Shown: positions 15,885 through 20,855 of the stretch, piece after piece
Layout of the letters: every line of letters begins with the position of its first letter
How positions within the stretch are numbered: position 1 is the first letter of the stretch
NCBI GenBank assembly: GCA_019246795.1
Contig: JAFAPY010000059.1
Span: 1-38,439 of the forward strand
DNA from: Streptosporangiaceae bacterium
GTDB lineage: Bacteria > Actinomycetota > Actinomycetes > Streptosporangiales > Streptosporangiaceae
Length of the DNA: 38,439 nucleotides
Direction of reading: 5' to 3'
Position numbers and translations under genes: made by a program
The notes under the pieces: generated by a model
The model's input: the letters and a program-made list of their open reading frames with translations, nothing else
What the model was told of the DNA's origin: nothing
The model's database searches: none

Positions 15885-17042
15885 TCACCTCTTGGCCTGG
15901 TCGAGCAGGGCGCAGAACCGGTCGAAGTGGTCGGCGGCGTCGTGCGGGCCGGGAGCGGCCTCCGGGTGGTACTGCACGCCGAACACCGGGCGCTCCAGCA
16001 GGCGCAGGCCCTCGACCACGCCGTCGTTGAGGTTGACGTGGCTGACCGCCGCCGGGCCGTACGGCGTGCCGAACGGCTCCAGCGCTTCGGGTGGCACGTG
16101 TGACCAGGTGGCGCCGTCGTCGCCGGCCGGGCCGGCCGCGTTGCCGGGGAGGGCGGCGGCGAAGCCGTGGTTGTGGCTGGTGATGTAGACGCGGCGGGTG
16201 GCCAGGTCCATGACCGGCTGGTTCACCCCCCGGTGCCCGTAGCCGAGCTTGTAGGTGCGCAGGCCCAGCGCCAGGGCGAGGATCTGGCTGCCCAGGCAGA
16301 TGCCGAACACCGGCAGGCCGGCGCCGAGCACCCCTCGCATCGCGGCCACCGCGTAGCCGGCCGCGGCGGGGTCGCCGGGGCCGTTGGAAAAGAACACGCC
16401 GTCCGGCCCGGCGGCGAGGACCTGCTCCGCCGTCCAGGTGGCCGGGACCACGACCACCTCGCAGCCCCTGGCGGCGAGGTGGCGCGGCGTGGCGGCCTTG
16501 ATGCCGAGGTCCACGGCCACGACACGGTGCCTGGCCTGGCCGGAGGGGCTGACCGTGTAGGGCTGCGGCGTGGTCACCACCCGCGCCAGGTCGGCCCCGG
16601 TCATCTGCGGGCTGGCCAGGACCCGCTGCAGCAGGGCGCCGGGGTCGCTCTCGGTGGTGCTGACCGCCGCCCGCATGGCGCCTCGCTCGCGCACCCGCCT
16701 GGTCAGCGCCCTGGTGCCGCGGATGGCGATGCCGGGGACGCCCTGGTCTTTCAGGTACGCGTCAAGGCCTTGCTGCGCCCGCCAGCTCGACGCGATCCTG
16801 GCCGGCTCGCGGACGACGTAGCCGCTGACCCAGACCCGCCGCGACTCCGGGTCGGCGTCATTCACGCCGGTGTTGCCGATGTGCGGCGCGGTCATCGCCA
16901 CGATCTGCCGGCAGTAGGAGGGGTCGGTCAGCGTCTCCTGGTAGCCGGTCATGCCGGTGTTGAAGACCATCTCGCCGAACGCCTCGCCTTCGGCGCCGAA
17001 GGCGGTCCCGCGCAGCGTCGTGCCGTCCTCCAGCACGAGCAT
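15885..17042 (-). CDS. carA: Carbamoyl-phosphate synthase small subunit (glutaminase)
   Basis: The 385-residue partner of CarB hydrolyses glutamine and feeds ammonia to it. The N-terminal CarA domain shows GEMVFNTGMTGYQETLTDPS, and the class I amidotransferase domain has nucleophile Cys249 in FGICLGSQ and the His/Glu pair in GVQYHPEAAPGP. ATG 17042 is preferred, giving MLVLEDG; GTG 17063, one base after the pyrC stop, is the alternative and would add seven residues. The tight packing in the pyr operon makes coupled translation likely. Confidence 0.96.
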   Translation of the reverse strand: MLVLEDGTTLRGTAFGAEGEAFGEMVFNTGMTGYQETLTDPSYCRQIVAMTAPHIGNTGVNDADPESRRVWVSGYVVREPARIASSWRAQQGLDAYLKDQGVPGIAIRGTRALTRRVRERGAMRAAVSTTESDPGALLQRVLASPQMTGADLARVVTTPQPYTVSPSGQARHRVVAVDLGIKAATPRHLAARGCEVVVVPATWTAEQVLAAGPDGVFFSNGPGDPAAAGYAVAAMRGVLGAGLPVFGICLGSQILALALGLRTYKLGYGHRGVNQPVMDLATRRVYITSHNHGFAAALPGNAAGPAGDDGATWSHVPPEALEPFGTPYGPAAVSHVNLNDGVVEGLRLLERPVFGVQYHPEAAPGPHDAADHFDRFCALLDQAKR

Positions 17043-17064
17043 GGCGGTTTTCCCTGCGCTCACC

Positions 17065-18398
17065 TCAGCCCAGCTTCCCGTCGAGCACGGTGGGGACGCC
17101 GCGCAGGAAGGTCGCCACCACCCGGCCCGGCAGCTCCATCCCGGCGAACGGCGTGTTGCGGCTCTTGGACGCGCCCGGCGTGACCGCCTCGGGGGGCGCC
17201 GCTGGATCGTACAGGGTGAGGCTGGCGGGGCGCCCGGCCGCCAGCGGGCCGCCGTGCCCGGCAAGCCGCCCGATCCGCGCCGGGCGGGCCGACATCCGGT
17301 CCGCGACGCCGTCCCAGTCGAGCAGCCCGCTGTCCACCATGGCCTGCTGCACGGCGCGCAGCGCGGTCTCCAGCCCGATCATCCCGAAGGCGGCCTCCGG
17401 CCACTCGGTCTCCTTGGCCTCCACCGGGTGCGGGGCGTGGTCGGTGGCCACGCAGTCGATGGTGCCGTCGGCGAGCGCGCGCCTGAGCTCGGCCACGTCG
17501 GCGGCGGTGCGCAGCGGCGGGTTGACCTTGAACACCGGGTCGTAGCCGGCGGCGAGCTCGTCGGTCAGCAGCAGGTGATGCGGGGTGACCTCCGCGGTGA
17601 CCGGCCATCCCTTGGACTTCGCCCAGCGGATGATCTCCGCCGACCCCGCGGTGGACACGTGGCACACGTGCAGCGCGGAGCCGACGTGCGCGGCGAGCAG
17701 GCAGTCCCGCGCGACGATCGCCTCCTCGGCGACGGCGGGCCAGCCGGCCAGGCCCAGGCGGCCGGACATCTCGCCCTCGTTGAGCTGCGCGCCCTCGGTG
17801 AGCCGCGGCTCCTGCGCATGCTGGGCGATCACCCCGTCGAAGGCCTTGACGTACTCCAGCGCGCGGCGCATCAGCAGCGGGTCGGCCACGCACCGGCCGT
17901 CGTCGGAGAAGACACGGACGCGCGCGGCCGAGTCTGCCATGGTGCCCAGCTCGGCGAGCCTGACCCCGCCGAGCCCGACGCTGACAGCGCCGACCGGCTG
18001 GACGTCGCAGCGGCCGCAGGCACGGCCAAGCCGCCATACCTGTTCCACGACCCCGGCGGTGTCGGCCACCGGGTCGGTGTTGGCCATCGCGTGCACCGCC
18101 GTGTAACCGCCGAGCGCCGCCGCCCTGGTGCCGGTCTCCACGGTCTCCGCGTCCTCGCGGCCCGGCTCGCGCAGGTGAGTGTGCAGGTCGACGAGGCCCG
18201 GCAGCGCGACCAGGCCGTCCGCGTCGAGCACCCGCGCGCCGGCCTGGCTCAGCCCGGAGCCGATCGCGGCGATCGTCCCGCCGCGGACCAGGATGTCGGC
18301 GGGGCCGTCCGCCTGGGCGACGCCGGCGCCTGCGCCGGCCAGCGCGGCGCCGCGGACCAGCCACGCGCCCTGGCCGCCCTTGCCGGGCGCCGGGCCGG

Positions 18399-18402
<4 letters not shown>
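17065..18402 (-). CDS. pyrC: Dihydroorotase
   Basis: A 445-residue zinc amidohydrolase of the long (class I) type that cyclises carbamoyl aspartate to dihydroorotate. Metal-binding motifs are present: [14 protein letters not shown], the His of HVCHVST, and CVATDHAPH. The substrate-binding [11 protein letters not shown] block is near the C-terminus. The start GTG 18402 overlaps the pyrB stop as GTGA, which indicates coupled translation. Confidence 0.96.
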
Positions 18403-20002
<1,600 letters not shown>

Positions 20003-20091
20003 TCACCGGACGGTCCTTAAAGGATGTCTACCGTGGCGATCATACGGTGAGTTACCTGCAGCTGCGGCCGTCATGCCGGGCCGGCGCGCTA

Positions 20092-20107
20092 TGTGATTTA
20101 GCTCACA
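20092..20107. promoter_or_regulatory. CRP/GlxR-type palindrome
   Basis: TGTGATTTAGCTCACA matches the CRP-family consensus TGTGA-N6-TCACA in all ten fixed positions and also the corynebacterial GlxR form with central TA. It lies 111 bases upstream of the pyrR start and 254 bases upstream of bldD, so either gene could be the target. Confidence 0.65.
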
Positions 20108-20278: not shown

Positions 20279-20307
20279 TTGACCTCGTTGCCCGAGCCGC
20301 CTACCGT
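20279..20307 (+). promoter_or_regulatory. bldD promoter
   Basis: TTGACC (20279-20284), 17-base spacer, TACCGT (20302-20307): a near-consensus -35 and a TANNNT -10 for the principal sigma factor. Transcription would begin near 20314, giving a leader of about 47 bases. Confidence 0.6.
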
Positions 20308-20319
20308 CACTGAGCGTAA
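20307..20319. promoter_or_regulatory. BldD box (autoregulation)
   Basis: TCACTGAGCGTAA fits the pseudo-palindromic BldD consensus TNACNC(A/T)GNGTNA with one mismatch (G for C at position 6). It covers the end of the -10 box and the predicted transcription start, the position at which BldD would block its own gene. Confidence 0.6.
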
Positions 20320-20360
20320 CCGTTACCGTAAGCGACGACCGGCCGGGGAACCGAGGAGCC

Positions 20361-20855
20361 ATGCCATCTGAGTACGCCAAGACGCTCGGCGCGCGGCTGC
20401 GTGCCATCCGTACGCAGCAGGGACTGTCGCTGCACGGAGTTGAGGAGAAGTCCCGCGGCCGCTGGAAGGCCGTCGTCGTGGGCTCCTACGAGCGCGGAGA
20501 CCGATCGGTAACCGTGCAGAAGCTCGCGGAGCTGGCGGAGTTCTACGGAGTTCCCGTCTCAGAACTGCTGCCCGGCGACGCGGCGCCCACGCCGTTGGCG
20601 CCCTCGCCCAAGCTCGTCATCGATCTGGAGCGGATGAACCAGCTGCCCAAGGACAAGGTCGGCCCGCTCGCCCGCTACGTCGCCACCATCCAGAGCCAGC
20701 GCGGCGACTACAACGGCCGGGTCCTTTCCGTGCGGCACGAAGACCTCCGTTCGCTCGCGGTCATCTACGACAGGTCCCCCTCCGACCTCACCGAGGAACT
20801 CATCGGCTGGGGCGTCCTCGACGCCGACGCGCGCGGCGCCATGGAAGGGTTCTGA
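20361..20855 (+). CDS. bldD: BldD, c-di-GMP-responsive developmental repressor
   Basis: A 164-residue regulator that in Streptomyces holds sporulation genes off when loaded with cyclic di-GMP. The N-terminal XRE-type helix-turn-helix spans about 8-71 (ARLRAIRTQQGLSLHGVEEK, then SYERGDRSVTVQKLAELAEF). The C-terminal domain carries the c-di-GMP signature RGD (114-116), eight residues, RHED (125-128), in the same spacing and numbering as the Streptomyces protein. ATG 20361 begins the family N-terminus MPSEYAKTLGARLRAIR. It is convergent with the HEPN gene and 4 bases from its stop. A sporulating or BldD-using actinomycete is implied. Confidence 0.97.
   Translation: MPSEYAKTLGARLRAIRTQQGLSLHGVEEKSRGRWKAVVVGSYERGDRSVTVQKLAELAEFYGVPVSELLPGDAAPTPLAPSPKLVIDLERMNQLPKDKVGPLARYVATIQSQRGDYNGRVLSVRHEDLRSLAVIYDRSPSDLTEELIGWGVLDADARGAMEGF

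Follow-up and report, generated by a model that had tools for sequence, protein, structure and literature searches.

A candidate CRP/GlxR-type site in the gap between divergent pyrR and bldD genes, conserved at clade-specific distances

The palindrome TGTGATTTAGCTCACA is found at positions 20092-20107 of the window (the whole stretch of DNA analysed, 38,439 nucleotides in length), inside the gap between the divergently oriented genes pyrR and bldD. We estimate a probability of about 0.55 that it is a genuine site of the single CRP/GlxR-type cAMP receptor predicted in this genome, common to the two divergent promoters. The site is ordinary in kind and unusual in its placement between pyrR and bldD at distances that are specific to clades. 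If CRP controls both sides, a carbon/energy signal (cAMP) would be coupled to the supply of nucleotides and also to a regulator that restrains development, and this in actinomycete genera that have been little studied genetically.

The palindrome, its neighbouring genes and the receptor

The sequence TGTGATTTAGCTCACA has all ten fixed bases of TGTGA-N6-TCACA, and it is the only exact match in the window, which is one entire 38-kb contig of a draft genome of 4.28 Mb in 424 contigs. The first-pass annotation described a perfect palindrome of this type between pyrR and bldD, and both its location and the names of the two flanking genes are borne out. A count of exact matches in the genome, which the same annotation proposed, gives seven in 4,279,158 bases against 0.90 expected from a first-order Markov model built on the window (72.7% GC), with a Poisson P of ~4e-5. 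The two control patterns, the motif in reverse and a composition-matched palindrome (TGATG-N6-CATCA), have zero matches each in the genome. The same type of model predicts ~8e-5 exact sites per 379-bp gap. The six other exact genomic sites were checked against open reading frames only. With two mismatches allowed, there is no excess of matches in the window (three vs 5.69 expected), and therefore the exact site stands alone in it. The palindrome is not a product of chance; a chance word is ruled out by the genomic excess, the zero counts of the controls and the conservation in family gaps described below.

The pyrR reading frame is on the minus strand (19364-19981) and scores 287 bits against NCBIfam NF003547, where the cut-off is 230. 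Its residues 1-24 are outside the best PyrR profile match, and the start codon is therefore uncertain. The sequence CCCCAGGCAACACTGCG is present twice near the 5′ end of this reading frame, at 19921-19937 and 19960-19976, 39 bp apart and amid runs of G and C, and it has no other copy in the genome at up to one mismatch. As this pair is in the part of the reading frame that extends beyond the best profile match, the true start, or a local duplication, deserves attention. The next gene in the same direction is pyrB, encoding aspartate carbamoyltransferase (18399-19367), and it is followed on the minus strand by pyrC, encoding dihydroorotase (17065-18402), and carA, encoding the small subunit of carbamoyl-phosphate synthase (15885-17102 is the stretch tested; the listed reading frame reaches 17264).

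On the other side of the gap, bldD is on the plus strand (20361-20855), with 291 bits against NF050110 (cut-off 250) and a match to Pfam PF21179. The nearest BldD among named records is from a Streptosporangiaceae metagenome-assembled genome (MAG; 96%), and among named species it is from Trebonia kvetii (92%). Directly 3′ of bldD and on the opposite strand is a gene of the HEPN_SAV_6107 family (PF18726; 20860-21375).

One clear CRP/GlxR homologue is encoded in the genome, as the first-pass annotation presupposed. There are eight cNMP-binding hits, and a Crp-type helix-turn-helix above the family cut-off is found at one place only, on contig C42, whose protein is the sole HTH_Crp_2 match over the cut-off. 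Almost the whole length of this protein aligns with 3d0s (E 7.6e-86), which we take to be the CRP of Mycobacterium tuberculosis, and with 4byy (5.2e-81), presumably GlxR. The recognition-helix stretch QLVGASRETVNKALADFA occurs unchanged in the aligned 3d0s chain. The protein is below the cut-off of the NCBIfam CRP equivalog model (98.7 vs 266 bits). Ten Guanylate_cyc hits in the genome may represent makers of cAMP.

Recurrence and spacing in related genomes

Gaps, defined as the DNA between the pyrR match and the bldD ATG, were taken from loci of family members, from 80 named loci and from loci outside the family. BldD is found in 132 family genomes, and the gaps of 89 of these, picked by rank and genus, were covered. 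Loci with no divergent pyrR match in the stretch were left out of the counts (11 of the 89 family loci and 22 of the 80 named loci); among them, L033/L151 and L150 carry a one-mismatch site upstream of bldD. The 136 family gaps with a divergent pyrR reduce to 119 distinct ones. It should be pointed out that the two locus sets overlap in genomes, that near-identical gaps stay among the 119 because the reduction was by exact identity alone, and that related gaps are not independent samples.

The search of orthologous gaps, another check put forward in the first-pass annotation, shows that the site recurs. The 119 distinct gaps comprise 18 with an exact match, 63 with one mismatch, 18 with two and 20 with more than two; a site at up to one mismatch is thus present in 81 of 119. 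In 60 dinucleotide shuffles the means were 0.07 exact and 0.87 at up to one mismatch, and the maxima were 1 and 5. Five of the 81 matches (L053, L054, L060, L066 and L132, the last from Actinoallomurus) are on the pyrR side of the leader mark defined below and represent a different site. In the first set, to which each genus contributed a single genome, the site is present at up to one mismatch in 15 of 25 gaps, and another five have it at the same places with two mismatches. The 19 gaps covered outside the family contain no site at up to one mismatch (G042, G043, G044 and G058, with a weak or no BldD match, are not among the 19). Within the family, 20 tips that form one block of the tree are devoid of a site at up to one mismatch; the block includes Acrocarpospora, Herbidospora and a Planomonospora-type locus (L092, with the same gap as the named locus L182). 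A scan of 78 gaps covered all inverted repeats of 5+5 bases with spacers of 0-10. In it, TGTGA with a six-base spacer had exact hits in 11 gaps, the third-highest number, and hits at up to one mismatch in 48, which puts it at position eleven in the list. Those of the higher-ranking pairs that were inspected were assigned to blocks shared by pyrR leaders or bldD promoters. As related soil actinomycetes have the site at typical distances from one gene or both, set out below, it is probably a real control switch.

Two conserved words served as rulers for distance. The pyr mark is TTAAAGG in the pyrR leader (20017-20023; CCTTTAA on the minus strand, where the leader lies), and the bldD mark is GTCACTG in the region of the bldD start. 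In the window the site is 75 bp from the pyr mark and 214 bp from the bldD mark. Three spacing patterns are found among relatives, and these correspond to three clades on a tree of BldD plus PyrR proteins (supports 0.69, 0.86 and 0.98), a tree that carries no information on the site. Groups A and C were first binned by bldD distance and group B by sequence, and the tree afterwards recovered all three. The initial A and C ranges are consequently bounded by definition, and the tree is a check of the grouping and not a proof of it, as the support of clade A is low (0.69).

Clade A contains Nocardiopsis, Streptomonospora, Actinorugispora and others. The site is present at up to one mismatch in 25 of its 35 tips, and every one of these sites is 248-252 bp from the bldD mark; the distance to the pyr mark, available for 23, is 78-81 bp in 19 and 89, 94, 129 and 229 bp in the remainder. 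Clade B consists of Actinomadura, Spirillospora and Actinocorallia. Here 35 of 36 tips have the site. Its distance to the pyr mark is 75-78 bp in 34 and 87 bp in one, and that to the bldD mark spans 144-194 bp, which makes a role for bldD doubtful in this clade. Copies of the site in clade B are skewed from the consensus (they start with GGTGAGAG), and many Actinomadura-like genomes appear by eye to have a word like CACC[TA]G..AAGACG directly on the pyrR side of the site. Clade C, with Trebonia, MAGs and the window, has the site in 16 of 22 tips and lacks it at up to one mismatch in the other six. Here the distance to the bldD mark is 211-218 bp in 13 of 16 (223, 223 and 238 bp in the others), and that to the pyr mark ranges over 75-743 bp. 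In 15 of the 16 gaps the pyr mark is 98-743 bp away, and a pyr role is therefore doubtful in clade C. The window itself, with 75 and 214 bp, agrees with the pyr spacing of clades A and B as well as with the bldD spacing of clade C.

The bldD spacing is the unexpected part of the finding, and its evenness in clades A and C points to a constraint of some kind. When pairs were restricted to those whose intervening DNA aligns no better than shuffled sequence, the median difference in length was 1 bp in clade A (26 of 200 pairs) and 4 bp in clade C (45 of 120 pairs). This is suggestive, though not strongly so, of a length that is held while the sequence drifts. The same test in clade B gives 1.5 bp (28 of 200 pairs), against 12 bp over all B pairs; as the distant B pairs also differ by just 1.5 bp, slow change in length may explain part of the even spacing.

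Where pyrR and bldD are separated, the genomes give no verdict on which of the two is the target. In the 16 genomes of this type, pyrR is 1.9-9.3 kb from bldD (15 genomes) or on another contig (one genome). The 700 bp upstream of pyrR has a site at up to one mismatch in none of the 16; in one of them (L211) the core GTGA-N6-TCAC is preserved, at 83 bp from the pyr mark. On the bldD side, 11 split loci have a one-mismatch site within 500 bp upstream in one case (L033).

Promoter context and readings of the site

The putative -10 hexamer of pyrR in the window is TATGAT (20039-20044, minus strand), in the position that TGnTAnnnT occupies in most relatives; the window hexamer is without the TG of the relatives, and no match to a -35 was seen for this promoter in the window. 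The relatives' motif is found 21-23 bases from TTAAAGG in 68 of the 74 site-bearing gaps that have the mark (21 of 23 in clade A, 35 of 35 in B and 12 of 16 in C). The pyrR transcript would start near 20032, and the centre of the palindrome, 20099.5, would be at about -67.5; in clade A the centre would be near -72, and the usual 75-81 bp of clades A and B together would correspond to about -68 to -72. From such putative starts, these positions would fall in the range of a class I-like site (roughly -60 to -90); the spacing to the leader mark is even in clades A and B, not in C.

Toward bldD, the predicted core promoter is TTGACC-N17-TACCGT (20279-20307, plus strand), which is strongly conserved in the family. 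The inverted repeat GTCACTGAGCGTAAC (20306-20320, plus strand), to which the GTCACTG ruler belongs, would lie over the bldD start, and we take it to resemble a BldD box. The palindrome is ~215 bp upstream of this putative start, outside the range of direct contact.

Other elements in the gap were considered as well. The PyrR-binding leader (Rfam RF00515) gives 29.5 bits in the gap against a curated threshold of 54 and does not pass; known RNA families yield only this and other sub-threshold hits there, and five sub-threshold hits in four relatives, none of them convincing. The distance pattern does not favour a short conserved gene in the stretch from the site to bldD, because distances shift by 1-2 bp and not by threes. 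A strong dyad is found 93-121 bp from the start of the site in L038, L056 and L085, and a conserved hairpin downstream of the site was rejected, as the best hairpin is elsewhere in most of the other loci listed. A second conserved dyad, TGAGAG-N4-CTCACT with TTACnCACnGTTTGGCCACTGA after it, is found in many Nocardiopsis-like genomes (e.g. L027) at 88-89 bp upstream of the bldD mark. Among 39 clade A-like sequences, a set into which a second weak match brought a few clade C loci, 22 have TTGAC or TTGAT downstream at a fixed offset of 26 from the start of the site; the next best offset accounts for two of 39. This word is possibly a -35 or the half site of another factor.

The proposed mode of action follows from these positions. 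CRP bound near -68 of the putative pyrR start would contact RNA polymerase from upstream, and, with a promoter that has a good -10 and no recognisable -35, CRP would most likely activate pyrR-pyrB-pyrC-carA. In the direction of bldD, CRP might act by bending or looping of DNA or through an unmapped upstream promoter; these are proposed because ~215 bp is too far for ordinary direct contact. The cAMP level would then be sensed by both pyrimidine synthesis and the BldD programme. CRP binding, the two transcript starts, the sense of regulation, any effect on bldD and any link to carbon status are all deduced from sequence, and in the window the role of the site is surer for pyrR than for bldD. 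A fuller proposal, that of a two-way cAMP-CRP switch governing pyrimidine synthesis together with the amount of the c-di-GMP-responsive BldD, with action on bldD over more than 200 bp in Trebonia- and Nocardiopsis-like actinomycetes, is tentative and on balance doubtful. The same tentativeness applies jointly to what this proposal would entail, i.e. linker DNA whose length is held as its sequence drifts, and a direct wire between the cAMP and c-di-GMP systems.

Perhaps the site serves the pyrR operon only, and slow change in length, or other conserved elements, would account for the evenness of the bldD distance in clades A and C. This would fit clades A and B, where a pyr mark accompanies 58 of the one-mismatch sites and 53 of these are at 75-81 bp from it, a range that takes in the window. 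It would also fit the free bldD distance in clade B and the closeness in length of distant clade B pairs. It fits poorly with clade C, where the site is exact or one mismatch off and yet far removed from the pyr mark in nearly all gaps, with the bldD distance held in 13 of 16, and with four clade A loci (L024, L037, L038 and L085) that have a changed pyr spacing but hold 249-252 bp to bldD. A role limited to pyrR is unlikely, though to be taken seriously. Less likely still is the converse, that CRP acts here for bldD or for an unmapped plus-strand promoter just downstream, and that the window's pyrR spacing is an inherited relic without present use. The even bldD spacing of clades A and C would be expected from it, and the TTGAY at offset 26 could be the -35 of such a promoter, but no conserved -10 is seen by eye after that word, an [AT]AnCGT word close to the site in clade C has a common offset in no more than three of 14 sequences and is not there in the window, and the distance to the bldD start exceeds ordinary CRP contact.

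That the palindrome serves a regulator other than CRP is very improbable. Dyads of this shape are not unique to one regulator, and the skewed clade B copies would be in keeping with a different protein. Against this, the window word is the CRP/GlxR consensus itself, and the genome has one Crp-type helix-turn-helix over the cut-off, in a protein whose recognition helix agrees with that of 3d0s. A CRP site common to the two promoters is the favoured reading.

Comparison with known systems

The first-pass annotation knew of no described CRP site at this locus. That stands for the pyrR-bldD gap, in that no report of a CRP site in such a gap was found among the matches listed, which does not establish absence from print; no paper that treats bldD, promoter and GlxR together was found either. 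It does not stand for pyrR on its own. A site of the M. tuberculosis CRP (Rv3676) assigned to pyrR (Rv1379), -365.5 from the start, is in print (PMC4117774, Table 2).

The regulator itself is of a known type. The palindrome is of the same class as the GlxR sites of Corynebacterium glutamicum, and the CRP of the window genome matches 4byy. Papers that name both GlxR and pyrR exist (e.g. PMC13274462). Gao et al. reportedly described the Crp regulon of Streptomyces coelicolor in 2012. This Crp, for which 393 target genes are given (PMC10033298), is a regulator of the same type as that of the window genome.

The closest comparison is with pyrR of M. tuberculosis. In the crp mutant, expression of pyrR is altered under two conditions, and it rises (PMC4117774). 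As pyrR goes up when crp is deleted, repression is indicated in that organism. The same source gives, for responsive genes with a CRP site at -44.5 to -88.5, five of six that fall in the crp mutant and one (-76.5) that rises; because five of the six fall, the putative position of the site at pyrR in the window fits activation. The two systems also differ in placement, -365.5 in M. tuberculosis against about -68 in the window, and bldD is absent from that source's account of pyrR. What they have in common is a CRP-type site tied to pyrR in an actinobacterium. Since CRP control of pyrR is reported in M. tuberculosis (PMC4117774), the site between pyrR and bldD would add to a type of control that is already known.
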